Shown here: positions 16,669 to 24,621 of the stretch, in pieces
How positions within the stretch are numbered: the stretch's first letter is position 1
Layout: each line of letters opens with the position of its first letter
Assembly (NCBI GenBank): GCA_003158505.1
Contig: PMJK01000025.1
Coordinates: 4,595 to 41,152, forward strand
Direction of reading: 5' to 3'
From: Holophagaceae bacterium
GTDB taxonomy: Bacteria; Acidobacteriota; Holophagae; Holophagales; Holophagaceae
DNA: 36,558 nucleotides
Notes under the pieces: model-generated
Databases searched by the model: none
The model's input: the letters and a program-made list of their open reading frames with translations, nothing else
What the model was told of the DNA's origin: nothing
Translations under genes and position numbers: made by a program

Positions 16669-19600
16669 TCATCCCCCCGGTCCCACCGTCTTGAACATGC
16701 GGCGGATCTCAGGGTTATGTGGATCCAGCGCAAAGGCCCGCCGGATGCGGGCCTTTGCATCCCTGTTCTCGCCCCGCGCTTCCGCGAGCTGCGCTCCCCT
16801 CAGCCACAGGGTGGCGACCTGGGGGAAGCGCTTCACGCCAACCTGGAACTGGATTTCGCCCTCTTCCAGGGCCCGAGCCCCCCGGACCGTTCCAAACCCT
16901 GTGGCCCTTCCCTTCCAAAGGGCGACTTCCACCAGGTTGGAAGCCAGAATCGAATGGAAGGGCGCCAGTAGCCTGGCCTGACGATAAGACTGGTCAGCCT
17001 GTTCCAGATCGGCCTGAGCGCCCGCCTCGTGATGGACCGTCTCCCACTGCCCACGCATCAGCGCGGCGTTGGCGATGCCGTACTGGGAGCGGAAGCTCGG
17101 CCTCTGCATGAGCGCCATTTTGAAACTCTGCATGGATTGTTCGAGGGAGGGCCGCGGATCCAACCCATGCGTGCGCTCGTACTCCGCCCGCTCCCCCCAG
17201 AGGTAACCCAAAAATTCCCGCAGGGACTTGGCCTCAGGTTCGCGGTCCAGCCCCCGAAGGATCACTTGGAGGGCGGATTCAAAGACGTCCCAGGGGGGTT
17301 GCCCCCGCAGGGCGCCTTCCGACATGCGCCATATCGACACCCCTGCCAATTCCTGCGCCAGACCCAAGTGGCCCGGCTGCAATTCGAGGGCCTGTCGGCC
17401 ATGGGCCAAGGCCTGATCCAGCCATGGAATGGGATCCCCCAGCTCCGGAGATTTGGCCGCGAAACTCTCCGCCTGCATCGCGCCTTCGAGCGCTTCAAAC
17501 GGTGGATGGGCTGACCCCACCAAGGGGGCCAAAAGCGCCAGGGCCTGCCGCAAGGCGTCCGCTCCCGAGCGGCCAGCCACATGCTCATTGATGGCTTTGG
17601 CCGTGAGCAGGGAGGCCTCCAGCACCGGCGCTTGCCGACCATCGGGTTCGAGGGTCCGGAGTTTTGACACGACGTCTTCTACCGAGGCGCGCAAGATCTT
17701 GCCCTGAGTCGGACCTGTTTCGAACGAGCCATAGAGCATCACCCCGATCCGGCCCGCCAGCTCCAGGGCCTGCACGTCGCACGGCGCGGCGTTCTGCGCG
17801 GAGCGGGCGCTCTGATGGGCCTTCGCCAGCATCGCGGCACGCTCCGGTCCGCTCTTCAGCATGCCCCAGGACATCAGCACCTGGGCCTCCAGCAGCTCAG
17901 CCTCATAGAACCAGGGCGCTTCGACCTGGGCCTCCTTCGCCCGGGCGATGGCCTCCTCCCAGCGCCCGGAGGCCCATGCCGCCTGCCCTTCCAGGTATGC
18001 GAGCGGGATCAGCGAGGCGGTGGCCCCGGATTTCAGCAACGGCTCGATGCGGGATGCGGCGCGCTCCTGGAGCCGGCTGACGGCCTCCTTCCGCGCGTCC
18101 TCTTGATCGATCCGCCAGGCCTCATCCATGGCGTGCTGATGGAGTTCCAGCATGGCCCGGCCCAGGGCGGACCGCAGTTCCGGCGTATCAAACCCCAGTG
18201 CCCTCGCCCGCTCCAGATGCGCCTGCGCCAGCTCCGGCTGGCCCAGGGCCAGCCTCGCGCGGCCGATCGCGTACTGCCCCGGTGCCTCCGCGATCGAGCT
18301 CTCGGCTTGCACTTCTTCCGCCAGGCGGGCCACCCGCCCCTCCAAGTCCCGGAGTTCCGGTCCCAGGTCGTGGGGCGGGGAAAGTTTGAGGTACCGGGCC
18401 AGGGCCTCGATCCGCTCGGCCGCCTGGGCGAAGCGCTGGGCATGGGCGGCCTGGGCCTGGGCCCGCAGCCTTTCCCTCACGGCCAAACCGCCGAAGAGGG
18501 CGATGGAGAGGAGCACCGCGGTCGAGGCTGCCACGAGGGCCTTCCGCCTACGGGCCCAGTGGAACAGACGCTCCGTGGCTGTGGCCGGGCGGGCCTGGAT
18601 GGGCTCGCCATCGAGAATGCGCTGGAGGTCCTCTCCCAGGGCCCGGGCAGTCTCGTAGCGGCGCCGCGGGTCCTTCTGGAGGCAGGTGAGCACGACCGTT
18701 TCGAGATCCACCGGGATGGTGGGCACAAGGCGGCGCAGCGGGACCGGATCGTCCTTCACGATGCGCGACATGCACTCCAGGCCCTCGCCGGCGAAGGGAG
18801 GATCCCCTGTCAGAAGCGTGTGAAGCGTGGCTCCCAGCGAGTAGACATCTGAGCGCCGGTCCAGCAGGGCCGCGTTCCCGCGGACCTGCTCCGGAGACAT
18901 GTAGCTCACCGTCCCCATCACGCGACCCGTCTCGGTGAGCCCTCGGCCCTCGCCACCGCGGGCCAGCCCGAAATCGAGCACACAGGCGCGGGTGGACCCG
19001 TCCTCGGAGCGGTCGATCATCAGATTGGCCGGCTTCAGGTCCCGGTGGACCAGGCCCACCCGGTGGGCTGCGTGGACGCCTTCACAGACCTCGGCCATGC
19101 GACGGAGCAGGGCCTCCAGTGGCAGGTCCGGCGCAGCCTCCTGCAGGGTCTCCCCGCGGAGGAACTGCATGGCGATGTAGGGCTGGCCGCGCCACTCGCC
19201 GACCTCGTAGACCCGGCACACATTCGGGTGGTCCACCCGGGCCTGGAGCTGCGCCTCCTGGATGAACCGCTGGAGGAGGTCGGGGTGGTCGCGCCGGAGG
19301 AGCTTCAGGGCCACCACCCGGTGGAGGCGCGGATCCATGGCCTTGAAAATGCGCCCCATGCCCCCTTCGCCAAGCAGTTCGAGGGCTTCAAAACGGCCCC
19401 ACTGGTCAAGCGTCTGGGCCTGGAAGACACTCCCCTGCCGGAGCCCCTTCGCGGGGGAGGCACTGCCAGGGGAGGAATCCAGCCCGGCATCTGTCGGCGT
19501 TTCGGCACCCCCGGCAGGCAGGTCCGCCGTGATCTCCATGGACCAGTGGTTCGCCTCATCGGCCTCCATCTCGGCCAGGTCCAGGACCAGCCTCCGAAGG

Positions 19601-19722
19601 ACGGCTTCAGACATCTGCCCGGAGGCCACCAGGTCCCCAAGATCCGCATTGCGGGCGATTCCGGGTTCGAGCAGCCCCCGGGCCACAGCCAAGGCCAGCA
19701 CCCGCTCGTCAGCAGTCGCCAT
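16669..19722 (-). CDS. Serine/threonine protein kinase with transmembrane helix and TPR-like C-terminal region
   Basis: LLGEGGMGRIFKAMDPRLHRVVALKLL, GLVHRDLKPANLMID, DFGLARGG, YMSPEQVRG; TM segment ALVAASTAVLLSIALFGGLAV; helical repeats. The 1699-aa ORF start at 21768 is antisense to the permease; ATG at 19722 (MATADERVLALAVARG) fits. Confidence 0.88.
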   Translation of the reverse strand: MATADERVLALAVARGLLEPGIARNADLGDLVASGQMSEAVLRRLVLDLAEMEADEANHWSMEITADLPAGGAETPTDAGLDSSPGSASPAKGLRQGSVFQAQTLDQWGRFEALELLGEGGMGRIFKAMDPRLHRVVALKLLRRDHPDLLQRFIQEAQLQARVDHPNVCRVYEVGEWRGQPYIAMQFLRGETLQEAAPDLPLEALLRRMAEVCEGVHAAHRVGLVHRDLKPANLMIDRSEDGSTRACVLDFGLARGGEGRGLTETGRVMGTVSYMSPEQVRGNAALLDRRSDVYSLGATLHTLLTGDPPFAGEGLECMSRIVKDDPVPLRRLVPTIPVDLETVVLTCLQKDPRRRYETARALGEDLQRILDGEPIQARPATATERLFHWARRRKALVAASTAVLLSIALFGGLAVRERLRAQAQAAHAQRFAQAAERIEALARYLKLSPPHDLGPELRDLEGRVARLAEEVQAESSIAEAPGQYAIGRARLALGQPELAQAHLERARALGFDTPELRSALGRAMLELHQHAMDEAWRIDQEDARKEAVSRLQERAASRIEPLLKSGATASLIPLAYLEGQAAWASGRWEEAIARAKEAQVEAPWFYEAELLEAQVLMSWGMLKSGPERAAMLAKAHQSARSAQNAAPCDVQALELAGRIGVMLYGSFETGPTQGKILRASVEDVVSKLRTLEPDGRQAPVLEASLLTAKAINEHVAGRSGADALRQALALLAPLVGSAHPPFEALEGAMQAESFAAKSPELGDPIPWLDQALAHGRQALELQPGHLGLAQELAGVSIWRMSEGALRGQPPWDVFESALQVILRGLDREPEAKSLREFLGYLWGERAEYERTHGLDPRPSLEQSMQSFKMALMQRPSFRSQYGIANAALMRGQWETVHHEAGAQADLEQADQSYRQARLLAPFHSILASNLVEVALWKGRATGFGTVRGARALEEGEIQFQVGVKRFPQVATLWLRGAQLAEARGENRDAKARIRRAFALDPHNPEIRRMFKTVGPGG

Positions 19723-19851
19723 GCCAGCCCATCTCCACGGAGGTGACTCCTGTGTGAATTCACCATGGTGACGCCATCGGACCCTCCGGTGAAGGTAACC
19801 TTGGTTGACCGGGGCCAGACCGTCGATCAGACTGATCTTGGCCCTGGCGCT

Positions 19852-19919
19852 GGAAAGGAGGTTCGATGAGACGACAAGCTGACCTCTCCGAACCTCCGTC
19901 GAGTCGCGCCGCCCGCTGA
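19852..19919 (+). promoter_or_regulatory. Putative leader element with short ORF (MRRQADLSEPPSSRAAR, ATG 19866, stop 19917-19919) and SD-sequestering hairpin
   Basis: GGAAAGGAGG before ATG; GGAGGTTCG (19857-19865) is perfectly complementary to CGAACCTCC (19889-19897). Shares GGAAAGGAGG and GAACCTCCGTCGAG with the element at 24550-24621. Confidence 0.55.
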
Positions 19920-20007
19920 GGCGGCACGTCCCCGCTCCCCCGAATCCGCACCTTGAACAGGATGTAGGCCCGCTCCCGCGAGCCGCCTCCGCTCCTCCGG
20001 GCCGGCC

Positions 20008-21759
20008 ATGATGAACCGATTTCTCGACACCATGTGGGGGCAGGCCAACGCCCTGTTCTCGCCCCTCCGGCGGCGGCGTTGGGTGGACCTCCTGCTCGTC
20101 GCCGCGGCCTTCGGCATGCTCTACGGCCTGATCCTTCTGGGCCACCAGTGGACGGACATCCAGCGGCCCGTGCTGGAGATCGACCTGTCTCCCTGGGCCC
20201 TGCCCAAGTACACCTTTTTCTCCATGATGCGGGGCCTGGCGGCCTACCTGATCTCCTTCGTCTTCACCCTTGTCTACGCCTACTGGGCCGCCAAGGACGC
20301 CCGCTCGGAGCGGCTGCTCGTGCCGCTGCTGGACATCCTCCAGAGCATCCCGGTGATGACCTTCATCGTGCCGCTGATGCTCGCGCTGGTGGCGACCTTC
20401 CCCCATAGCAATGTGGGCATCGAACTGACGGCCATCATCGCCATCTTCACGGGCCAGGCCTGGAACATGACCTTCAGCCTCTACCACTCCCTGAAGAGCG
20501 TACCCGCCGAGTTGCAGGAGGCTGGCACGGTGTACCGGTTCAACTGGTGGCAGCGCTTCAAGTGGGTCGAACTCCCCTTCGCCACCACGGGCCTGGCCTG
20601 GAACAGCATGATGAGCATGGCCGGAGGCTGGTTCTTCCTCATGCTGGTGGAGGCCTTCAAGCTGGGTGACAAGGACTTCCGGGTGCCCGGCCTGGGCTCG
20701 TACATGAGCATGGCCGTAGAGCATGGCGATGTGCGCGCCCAGCTCTGGGCCGTGGCGGCGATGATCCTGATGATCGTACTGCTCGACCAGGTGCTGTGGC
20801 GGCCCATCGTGGTGTGGGCCCAGCGCTTTCGCATCGAGGACACGGTCCAGGTGGCTGATTCCCAGAGCTGGTTCCTGAACCTCATCCGCGGCTCCCGGCT
20901 CATCCGTAGGTGGGACCGCTGGCGGGTCAAGCGACGGCGGAACCGGCAGCATCGCCATCCGGTCCGAAAGCGGGTCCAGGCGGACGCCAGCATCGATCGG
21001 GCGGCCCATGCCGCACCCTGGCTGGCCATGGGGGCCCTCATCGTCCTGTCGGGGTTCCTCGTCTTGGGCGGCTTTGGTATCTTCCATCTGCTCCATCAGC
21101 TCCCGTCCGGCGCCTGGTGGACCCTCCTCAAGGCCGACGGGCTCACCCTCTCGCGGGTGATGGCATCCGTCCTCATCGGACTCTGCTGGACCCTGCCCGC
21201 AGGCCTCGCCATCGGCCTCTCTCAGCGGCTGTCCCGCATCTTCCAGCCCATTGTCCAGGTGGCGGCCTCCTTCCCCGCGCCCATGCTCTTCCCGGTGGTC
21301 GTGGCCATCCTGGCTTCCCTCAGGATCGGCCTGGGCTGGGGCAGTATCGCCCTCATGCTGCTGGGCACCCAGTGGTACATCCTCTTCAACGTGATCGCCG
21401 GGGCCAGCGCCATCCCCAGCGACCTGCGGGAAGTGGGAACCGCCTTCGGCTTCAGCCGCTGGCAACGCTTCCGCAATCTCTATCTGCCCGCCATCTTCCC
21501 CTACCTGGTGACCGGTTGCCTGACGGCCGCGGGGGGCGCCTGGAACGCCAGCATCGTGTCCGAGTACTACAACATCAGCGGACCCACGCTGCAGACTTTT
21601 GGCCTCGGGGCCATCGTTAGCCAGGCCGGCGAACAGCGGGATTTCCCCCTCCTGGCCGCCTCCACCCTGGTCCTGGCCGCGACGGTGGTGCTGTTCAACC
21701 GCCTGATCTGGAAGCCGCTCTACAAGATCGCCGAAACCAACTATTCCCTGTCGAAGTGA
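20008..21759 (+). CDS. ABC transporter permease, NitT/TauT type, two permease domains in one polypeptide
   Basis: Two binding-protein-dependent permease loops: SLKSVPAELQEAGTVYRFNWWQRFKWVELP and GASAIPSDLREVGTAFGFSRWQRFRNLYLPAIFP. Confidence 0.9.
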   Translation: MMNRFLDTMWGQANALFSPLRRRRWVDLLLVAAAFGMLYGLILLGHQWTDIQRPVLEIDLSPWALPKYTFFSMMRGLAAYLISFVFTLVYAYWAAKDARSERLLVPLLDILQSIPVMTFIVPLMLALVATFPHSNVGIELTAIIAIFTGQAWNMTFSLYHSLKSVPAELQEAGTVYRFNWWQRFKWVELPFATTGLAWNSMMSMAGGWFFLMLVEAFKLGDKDFRVPGLGSYMSMAVEHGDVRAQLWAVAAMILMIVLLDQVLWRPIVVWAQRFRIEDTVQVADSQSWFLNLIRGSRLIRRWDRWRVKRRRNRQHRHPVRKRVQADASIDRAAHAAPWLAMGALIVLSGFLVLGGFGIFHLLHQLPSGAWWTLLKADGLTLSRVMASVLIGLCWTLPAGLAIGLSQRLSRIFQPIVQVAASFPAPMLFPVVVAILASLRIGLGWGSIALMLLGTQWYILFNVIAGASAIPSDLREVGTAFGFSRWQRFRNLYLPAIFPYLVTGCLTAAGGAWNASIVSEYYNISGPTLQTFGLGAIVSQAGEQRDFPLLAASTLVLAATVVLFNRLIWKPLYKIAETNYSLSK

Positions 21760-21766
21760 GGGACCC

Positions 21767-23068
21767 ATGATTCACGCCATCAACGCCAATCACGAAGTCA
21801 TCTGCGAACTGAAGGGCATCCAGAAATCCTTCGACCGGGAGACTGGCCACCCCCTGCGGGTGCTGGAGGACATCAATCTGGATGTCCGCGCCAATGAGGT
21901 GGTCTGCCTCATCGGGCCGTCCGGTTGCGGGAAGTCCACCATCCTGCGCATCTTCGCCGGCCTGATCCAGCCCACGAAGGGCCGGACCTTCTACCACGGC
22001 GAGGAGATGGAGGGACTCAATCCGGGCGTGGCCATCGTCTTCCAGAACTTCGCCCTCTACCCGTGGATGACGGTGGAGGCCAACGTGAAGACCGTGCTCC
22101 AGGCCCAGGGCCTGGACGACGAGACCATCAAGGCCAAGGCCCATCGGGCCATCAGCCTGGTGGGCCTGGAGGGCTTCGAAGAGGCCTATCCCCGGGAGCT
22201 CTCCGGCGGCATGAAGCAGCGCGTGGGCATGGCTCGCGCCCTCAGTGTCGATCCAGAGATCCTGTTCATGGACGAGCCCTTCAGTCACGTGGACGCCCTC
22301 ACGGCAGAGGGCCTCCGGGCTGAGATCCTGGACATCTGGGATGATGCCGAGCGCAACCCGTCCTCCATCCTTATGGTGAGCCACGACATCAAGGAAGTGG
22401 CCTACATGGCCGACCGCATCGTGGTGCTGTCGGCCAACCCCGGCCGCCTGCGCACCATCGTGGAAAACCCCCTACCCCGGCCCCGGGACATGCGCAGCCC
22501 CGAGTTCCTCCGCCTGGTGGACCAGCTCCACGACATCATCACCAGCACGGAACTCCCGGACGTGGAAATCACCGCCCCAACACCCAGCTTGCAGCCCGAC
22601 ATCGTGGAACCGCTTCCTCCAGCTCCCTCCTCGGACATCCTCGGCCTGCTGGAGTACCTGGAGACCCAAGGCGGCGCGGGGGACCTCTTCCAGGTGGCCG
22701 CCGCCACCCACGTGACATTCGAGAAGATTCTCGCCTCCGTGAAGGGCGCGGAGATGCTCGACTTCGTGGATACCCCCAAGCGCCAGGTCGTCCTCACGCC
22801 CCTGGGCCAGCGCTTCGTGCGGGCCAACATGGATGACCGCAAGGACATCTGGAAGGCCCAGCTCCTGGAGCTGCGCCTGTTCCGCCTGGTCCAGGAACTC
22901 ATCGACCTGCACGAGGGCGAGCTGAAAGCAGACGAGTTGCTCGCCGAGCTGCAGCAGCGCCTGCCCATGGAGAACTCCGAGCAGACCTTCGACACCCTGG
23001 TCACGTGGGGCCGCTTCGGTGAACTCTTCGCTTACCGCGAAGAGCGCGGCGTTCTCACGCCGGAGTAG
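21767..23068 (+). CDS. ABC transporter ATP-binding protein (nitrate/sulfonate type) with C-terminal AAA-associated domain
   Basis: Walker A GPSGCGKST, signature LSGGMKQRVGMARAL, Walker B ILFMDEPFSHVD; ~180-aa C-terminal extension. Confidence 0.92.
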   Translation: MIHAINANHEVICELKGIQKSFDRETGHPLRVLEDINLDVRANEVVCLIGPSGCGKSTILRIFAGLIQPTKGRTFYHGEEMEGLNPGVAIVFQNFALYPWMTVEANVKTVLQAQGLDDETIKAKAHRAISLVGLEGFEEAYPRELSGGMKQRVGMARALSVDPEILFMDEPFSHVDALTAEGLRAEILDIWDDAERNPSSILMVSHDIKEVAYMADRIVVLSANPGRLRTIVENPLPRPRDMRSPEFLRLVDQLHDIITSTELPDVEITAPTPSLQPDIVEPLPPAPSSDILGLLEYLETQGGAGDLFQVAAATHVTFEKILASVKGAEMLDFVDTPKRQVVLTPLGQRFVRANMDDRKDIWKAQLLELRLFRLVQELIDLHEGELKADELLAELQQRLPMENSEQTFDTLVTWGRFGELFAYREERGVLTPE

Positions 23069-23081
23069 CTCTCTGCGTGTA

Positions 23082-24410
23082 TCAGAACTGGGCGTGGAGC
23101 CTCAGGGCAAAGATGTCCACGGGCCCGCGGTCGCGGTTGTAGCCGGGATTCCAGATCCGCTGGGCATCCAGGGTGGCGGTGAAGAAGCGCCCCAGCGACA
23201 CGGCGTAGTAGGTCTCGATGAGCCGTTCCTGGTCATAGTTCAGGCGTCCGTCCCCGAGCATGAAGCCCAGCCCGCCCGCGGCCAGGTAGGCCCGGTGATC
23301 CGGGGATAGGCCATTCGCAACGAGAGCAACCCCGAGGCGATCCTGGCCCCGGTTCCATCCGGCTCCTGCCAGGGAAAGACCGAAGGCCAGGGAGCGATCC
23401 ACTTCTGTGAAGACCCAGGTCTCCGTGCGGCCGTCATTCCAACCCGCCCTGAGGAAGCCTCCCAGGTCCCCGGTCAGGGCCTGGTCGGCACTGAGGCCCC
23501 AGCCGTACTTGATGCGGCCCGGCTGGCGGGTGACGATCACATCCGGCGCGAGGGGCGACAGCTGGAGGCTCTCCTGGTAGCTGCCCATGTCGGCATGGTT
23601 GGCGTAGCCGAGGATCCGGACATGGCCCGCCTGGCCGCCAATCTCGTGATCATGTTCCACCTCGATCACATCCCCGTGGGCGCGATCCACCTGGTGATCG
23701 AAGGACAGGCCATTCGCCTGGGTGGGCACCATGAAACTGCCTGCGCGAAGGGCCCAGGCATCCCAGTACAGCTCGAAGGCCACGCCCCAGCTGTAGCCCC
23801 GGGTGTCCGCCGGGTAGTCCCAGGCCGCGGTGTCCATGAGGGTCCAGTTCAGGAACTGGGTACGGGGGTCGTGGGCGTAGGCGTTGGCATCGAAGATGTC
23901 GCCCAGGGCAATCCTTCCCACGGTCATCACGACCCGGTGGCGGTCACGGGATCCGGACAACTGGTTCTGGTCCGGGGCAACGGGCTCACTACCGCCACCG
24001 AAATCCCAGGTCTGCCGCAGGAATAGGCGGGCGAGCGAGACCTTCAGCTCGGGGCTGGCCACCCGGTAGATCTCGCCGTTCGGCGCAGCGGCGAGACCCA
24101 GGACATGGCTGACGCCCTGCCCTCCGGCGAGCTCCGGATTCACGTAGAACTCGGCGCCCTCCCAGAGGCGGCACCCGAGGAACAGGGTGGAGGTGAGGGA
24201 ATTTCGGATCTCCTTGCGGGATTCGAAACTGTTCACCCCTTCGTAAGGGGAGGTGAATGCCCCATGGCCCTGGGTGACTGTGGTCGCCTGACCGTGCAAG
24301 CTCCAGGTCTCGGGAGCAGGATCGCTGACCTGACCTCGGAGCAAACTGGAGATGGCCAGGGTGGCAACGGAGGCCATCAAATTACGGAACAGGGTCCGAT
24401 GGGTGCGCAT
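23082..24410 (-). CDS. Carbohydrate-selective porin, OprB-like
   Basis: Signal sequence MRTHRTLFRNLMASVATLAISSLLRGQ; GQATTVTQGHGAFTSPYEGVNSF; VGRIALGDIFDANAYAHDPRTQFLNWTLMDTAAWDYPADTRGYSWG. Confidence 0.82.
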   Translation of the reverse strand: MRTHRTLFRNLMASVATLAISSLLRGQVSDPAPETWSLHGQATTVTQGHGAFTSPYEGVNSFESRKEIRNSLTSTLFLGCRLWEGAEFYVNPELAGGQGVSHVLGLAAAPNGEIYRVASPELKVSLARLFLRQTWDFGGGSEPVAPDQNQLSGSRDRHRVVMTVGRIALGDIFDANAYAHDPRTQFLNWTLMDTAAWDYPADTRGYSWGVAFELYWDAWALRAGSFMVPTQANGLSFDHQVDRAHGDVIEVEHDHEIGGQAGHVRILGYANHADMGSYQESLQLSPLAPDVIVTRQPGRIKYGWGLSADQALTGDLGGFLRAGWNDGRTETWVFTEVDRSLAFGLSLAGAGWNRGQDRLGVALVANGLSPDHRAYLAAGGLGFMLGDGRLNYDQERLIETYYAVSLGRFFTATLDAQRIWNPGYNRDRGPVDIFALRLHAQF

Positions 24411-24549: not shown

Positions 24550-24621
24550 CTAGTCCAGGTGGACGCAGCTCGACGGAGGTTCAGCGATCATGGACATCAT
24601 CTTCATCGCAGCCTCCTTTCC
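24550..24621 (-). promoter_or_regulatory. Putative leader element with short ORF (MKMMSMIAEPPSSCVHLD, ATG 24606, stop 24552-24550)
   Basis: Minus strand GGAAAGGAGG (24621-24612), ATG, then GAACCTCCGTCGAG (24582-24569) in frame as E-P-P-S-S at residues 9-13; TAG stop; 140 nt upstream of the porin start. Confidence 0.55.

Follow-up and report, generated by a model that had tools for sequence, protein, structure and literature searches.

A candidate family of short leader genes upstream of probable magnesium or manganese uptake genes in Geothrix and related soil bacteria

What are two similar short open reading frames (ORFs) doing upstream of an ABC permease gene and an OprB-family porin gene in the same stretch of a Holophagaceae genome? 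The window, that is, the whole stretch of 36,558 nt analysed here, contains one such leader on each strand (Table 1). Reading both strands places the two leaders, their Shine-Dalgarno (SD) blocks, the 24-nt distance from ATG to GAA and the common 14-nt block where the preliminary description had put them. In the porin leader, the spacer CTGCG separates the SD from the ATG (24606-24604, minus strand), and the porin ATG at 24410 lies 139 nt past the leader stop. GAACCTCCGTCGAG is common to both leaders, and the shared 14-mer occurs exactly twice in the window; the pattern of SD plus 14-mer has exactly two matches in the whole assembly, which is about 87% complete, so that a further copy could be missing. 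The covariance model, which was built from 32 leaders, also finds only two copies in this genome, with E-values (per genome) of 1.2e-14 for the permease leader and 1.1e-13 for the porin leader, both flattered since the two leaders are among those 32. Judged by these E-values and by recurrence of the leader before the corresponding genes of relatives with a permease down to about 52% amino acid identity, the pair can be regarded as well beyond chance. The earlier view that the two are not a recent duplication is supported. On the minus strand, the listed ORF of 1699 aa (16669-21768) encodes a protein kinase, its frame running on without a stop opposite the permease; translation of the kinase probably begins near 19700, so that kinase and permease would diverge around the leader.

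Table 1. Coordinates of the leaders and neighbouring genes in the window.
Feature	Position	Strand	Basis
Probable promoter of permease leader, TTGACC-17 nt-CAGACT	19805..19833	plus	genus-wide alignment (predicted)
Permease leader, SD block	19852..19861	plus	window reading
Permease leader ORF, MRRQADLSEPPSSRAAR then stop	19866..19919	plus	window reading; covariance model, E = 1.2e-14 (flattered, see text)
Permease leader, hairpin 3' arm (TCTCCGAACCTCCGTCG region)	19886..19901	plus	fold, -20.0 kcal/mol
ABC permease of two fused domains (both BPD_transp_1); start lacks an SD	20008..21759	plus	domain search
ABC ATPase with AAA_assoc_C domain	21767..23068	plus	domain search
OprB-family porin (PF04966)	23082..24410	minus	domain search; start read from sequence
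Porin leader ORF, MKMMSMIAEPPSSCVHLD then stop	24550..24606	minus	window reading and family alignment
Porin leader, hairpin 3' arm ATCGCTGAACCTCCGTCG, codons 7-12 (I-A-E-P-P-S)	24571..24588	minus	fold, pair counts
Porin leader, SD block GGAAAGGAGG, with the AUG region the hairpin 5' arm	24612..24621	minus	family alignment

Then, how far does the leader extend beyond this genome? With the covariance model, it was identified in 65 of the 78 Holophagaceae genomes, at one to three copies each, and nothing was found outside Holophagaceae among 396 Acidobacteriota genomes. When 85,462 species, with one genome per species, were scanned by pattern, the scan gave 52 records, the true ones being from Holophagaceae, including Geothrix fermentans, G. 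rubra, G. limicola, G. paludis and G. campi; the non-Holophagaceae records inspected were rejected as fortuitous, since they lay within long ORFs or ran into a stop early. Of the 47 genomes of the genus, 46 have a relative of the permease (in some only a weak match to a paralogue), as do most of the family's other genera, and leaders precede the permease in Geothrix and in genera g16 and g18-g24, despite permease identities down to 49-56%. The permease leader is absent or degenerate in four Geothrix relatives (L035, L036, L037 and L044), in genus g17 and in L069, L075 and L082. For example, L036 has lost the SD, and its anti-SD has decayed too, with the TTGACC-type promoter kept; in L044 the leader is deleted and the TTGACC-type motif remains. 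The genomes of L044 and L036 (G036 and G034) still hold the porin copy of the leader. Upstream of five plasmid relatives of the permease, no similar leader was found.

No gathering-level Rfam match was obtained in the window or at 11 further loci, and sensitive Rfam scans of both leaders returned only a below-threshold match to WT1-AS on the other strand. There was no M-box covariance-model match at these leaders, an NCBIfam search with two leader constructs of 21-22 residues gave no match, and a literature search for Geothrix and leader peptides yielded nothing relevant. The preliminary description had proposed an undescribed cis-regulatory leader family common to a transporter and its porin, to be checked against the genome, its relatives and Rfam. 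This proposal is supported: the motif recurs in relatives upstream of transport genes, with only two copies in its own genome, and matches no Rfam family. On sequence grounds, we regard the leader as an undescribed family of tiny genes before uptake genes in Geothrix and related soil bacteria.

The core of the leader is predicted to be a hairpin. The leader ORF has its SD and AUG paired with its own codons 7-12, which contain an anti-SD mimic, AACCUCC. The arms are AAGGAGGUU followed by GCGAUG or UCGAUG on one side, and AUCGC-UG-AACCUCC or AUCGA-UG-AACCUCC on the other, forming a helix of 12 pairs with an asymmetric two-base bulge and G-U pairs. Its covariation score is 0.094 versus 0.064 for shuffled alignments, and neither any of 500 shuffles nor any slid version of the helix reaches it; pair 17-55, for example, is G-C in 12 sequences and U-A in 9. 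In genera g23 and g24 the anti-SD is longer (CCUCCUUU opposite AAAGGAGG), and EPPS becomes EPPL. Against shuffled sequence, the mean z of the hairpin is -2.2 to -2.7 per target class. In the window, the porin leader pairs CCTCC with GGAGG and ATCGC with GCGAT (-15.5 kcal/mol), and the predicted fold of the permease leader pairs GGAGGTTCG with CGAACCTCC. The GGAGG/CCTCC pairing, earlier noted as possible, is real, and in most relatives it is longer than had been seen.

A small hairpin, GCCGCC-CGCUGA-GGCGGC, also lies over the stop codon of the permease leader (19909-19926) and is conserved in Geothrix permease leaders only; it was rejected as a core part, since it was not seen in the other-genus or porin copies read. 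No downstream attenuator or terminator was found in the genus, folds near the permease start having z of about 0, no better than shuffled sequence, and the Rho-type C-rich, G-poor stretches sought were not above shuffled sequence.

Could the dyad act as DNA? The inverted repeat adjoins the conserved -35 and -10 elements, and GGAGGTT..GCGAT / ATCGC..AACCTCC might be a repressor site just downstream of the promoter. However, the asymmetric bulge and the G-U pairs argue against an operator, which would moreover need none of the conserved SD, ATG, frame and stop, and we consider it very improbable. A stability hairpin of the ompA type at the mRNA 5' end, without sensing, would fit the position of the structure near the 5' end that the promoter predicts, but would leave the anti-SD identity, the conserved ORF and the restriction to one to three ion-uptake loci per genome unexplained; this is improbable as well.

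The main rival on mechanism is control by RNA only, where the hairpin itself would be the switch, either because its hold on the SD responds to ions or temperature or because a protein binds it, and the peptide would be incidental. Besides the strong covarying hairpin, the hypervariable residues 2-7 of the peptide and the frozen third base of Pro10 speak for it. In the 74 unique leaders, which came from a search seeded on the motif and include those of NRMT targets, only [E/D]-P-P is constant (74/74); residue 12 is S or L, and residue 13 is free (S, R, C, W, P and others). The codon of Pro10 is CCT, which pairs with the SD, in 73 of the 74 leaders; Pro11 occurs as CCG, CCT, CCC and CCA. Pairing in the RNA is enough to account for the conservation of AACCUCC.

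On the other hand, the distance from ATG to the acidic codon is 21, 24 or 36 nt in all 74 leaders, always in frame, although this result is partly conditioned on an extraction that sought in-frame GA[N]-CC[N]-CC[N] and involves few independent indels. The distance from SD to the acidic codon takes values of 0, 1 and 2 modulo 3, and the copies in L066, L152 and L155, which came from the frame-free covariance-model search, are all in frame too. The first two bases of the acidic codon, GA, are invariant though one of them is bulged, and the third base is A, G or C, giving E or D; the acid is kept through an E-to-D change in the NRMT copies. The stops are also kept, including through a TGA-to-TAA change in L042 and L057. 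Furthermore, the sequestered SD belongs to the short ORF and not to the transporter gene. A recognisable SD precedes none of 47 unique permease starts (including that at 20008), though the leader ORF has a near-perfect one. The retention of frame, acid and stop supports, without proving, selection on the leader ORF, which is 13-23 codons long and mostly 60-170 nt from its target gene, and RNA-only control seems to us rather unlikely. As for the conserved EPPSS peptide of the preliminary description, much of it is the anti-SD read as protein; residues 12 and 13 vary, and what the peptide conserves is [E/D]-P-P.

Which genes, then, lie under the leader? A regulon of transporter and porin, as first proposed, holds for both targets but is too narrow, since NRMT-type transporters related to NRAMP are included, which were first met as weak covariance-model matches. 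In the target test, which searched for the transporter itself rather than for the leader, 12 NRMT-type genes had sufficient sequence upstream to be counted; 10 of these have the leader, and one of the remaining two, L164, follows a porin with a leader. A further NRMT-like gene with a leader is present in L147, and the leader is also located between a porin and an NRMT-type transporter in L157, L159, L161 and L090. For other NRAMP-family genes the count is 0 of 15, including 0 of 6 of the DPGN/MPH MntH type. The best solved relative of an NRMT target is 7qia (EleNRMT; 203 bits, E = 5.8e-59), with 66 bits for MntH, and these targets carry NDAGG and TTIA/TTIT motifs, that is, the DxxG (helix 1) and TxxA/T (helix 6) signature of NRMTs (PMC8806188). 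The leader-bearing NRAMP-related targets thus appear, by sequence, to be NRMT-like. Among porins, the six that come immediately after the ATPase and in its orientation, as part of the ABC operon, all lack the leader, whereas about 15 of 17 porins elsewhere have it (Fisher p = 3e-4, a statistic that ignores kinship, some of these porins having been found through their leader).

The NRMT gene is followed by a partner gene with PRC, MgtE_N and CBS domains, an arrangement that points to uptake of a divalent cation (Mg2+ or Mn2+) and not to sulfur; an MgtE searched for in the genome of the window was not found. The preliminary description had offered sulfur sensing as one idea, in view of the Cys in the porin copy. 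A cysteine or sulfur attenuator would suit the nitrate/sulfonate-like ABC family and the Cys of some copies, but only 28 of the 74 leaders contain Cys, and the common targets are NRMT transporters and porins; the idea is not supported, and we give such an attenuator hardly any credence. The ABC pair, which has no substrate-binding protein (SBP) and is annotated as a nitrate/sulfonate/bicarbonate transporter, recurs on plasmids (L234, L235, L237 and L238), several times in the vicinity of genes related to metals (VIT, CDF, MgtC, FetAB). The plasmid homologues adjoin a VIT protein, a CDF plus MgtC pair, or a carbohydrate porin; such neighbours suggest cations, and the annotation may be wrong. 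Taken from their sequences, the uptake genes under the leader are most probably for magnesium or manganese.

Which of the two ions would be the signal? A Mn2+ uptake regulon, with a sensor acting on the leader, overlaps with the explanation that we prefer. In its favour, NrmT of Acidobacterium capsulatum, a species of this phylum in which an MgtE fragment likewise adjoins the transporter, acted as a manganese and not a magnesium transporter (PMC4072509). The VIT and CDF neighbours of the ABC pair point the same way. However, the canonical MntH-type NRAMP genes of these genomes lack the leader, as counted above, and we know of no leader peptide that senses manganese; manganese as the signal is possible, if somewhat doubtful.

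For comparison, mgtL of mgtA in Salmonella and E. coli, and likewise corL of corA, are short ORFs 5' of Mg2+ transporter genes in structured leaders, mgtL having acidic and proline codons early in its peptide (PMC11552253), and mgtQ of Salmonella mgtB is a very short acidic ORF that overlaps a stem-loop and controls a Mg2+ transporter (PMC8092293). Acidic/proline leaders of this type reduce the efficiency with which they themselves are elongated, and in this way transporter expression goes up, the mgtL effect being set by Mg2+ (PMC11552253; PMC8092293). There are also differences. No sequence relation to mgtL was seen, the phylum is different, the targets here are NRMT, ABC and porin genes, the single [E/D]PP is milder than the alternating acidic/proline stretch of mgtL, and the SD and AUG are hidden by codons of the leader's own ORF. 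In contrast to mgtQ, which lies between two genes and releases the mgtB ribosome-binding site, the hidden SD is that of the leader ORF, and the permease has none. RNA control of NRAMP-related transporter genes is known from the M-box before NrmT genes (PMC4072509), and a small upstream ORF controlled through a translational platform from the M-box of M. tuberculosis pe20 (PMC12810186), but the Holophagaceae leaders have no M-box or other Rfam match. What appears to be new is an Rfam-unmatched family, of a known kind, namely a translated leader controlling cation uptake. Its closest mechanism would be that of mgtL and mgtQ, although we do not file it as a member of mgtL.

The sequences themselves show a covarying hairpin, an ORF that has been kept together with its [E/D]-P-P, and the target genes; starting from these, we infer the signal, its direction and the ligand as follows. 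A sigma70-like promoter would be followed by the hairpin-hidden SD and start of the short ORF, the spacer and the target gene. With sufficient cation, the ribosome would pass the acidic-Pro-Pro stretch and finish, and the downstream message would be switched off. When Mg2+ is low, it would stall at [E/D]PP or leave the message there, in the way reported for mgtL and mgtQ; ribosome occupancy would then change, as would the folding of the SD/anti-SD hairpin, so that the downstream gene is expressed. The output may be Rho termination, translation or mRNA stability. We prefer such an mgtL/mgtQ-like mechanism, with some reserve, for the like motif, the like targets and the structured start region. 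That the leader acts in cis, with translation as the sensor of a shortage of divalent cation (Mg2+ or Mn2+) that switches the uptake genes on, has in our estimate not quite an even chance. A bolder and distinctly less likely version is a self-closing leader ORF, family-wide, that would contain the 16S anti-SD sequence among its codons and with it shut its SD and start codon. Intracellular Mg2+ would be gauged jointly by the availability of 30S subunits and by how stable the nascent chain is at [E/D]PP, and uptake of divalent cations across the inner and outer membranes would be set accordingly.

If true, Mg2+ sensing by the ribosome through an acidic/proline leader peptide would occur outside enterobacteria, with a self-sequestering SD, and uptake across the outer and the inner membrane would be controlled together. 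It would also provide a regulon clue for the widespread, uncharacterised SBP-less ABC transporter (permease and AAA_assoc_C ATPase) and its OprB partners, which may then be divalent-cation systems.
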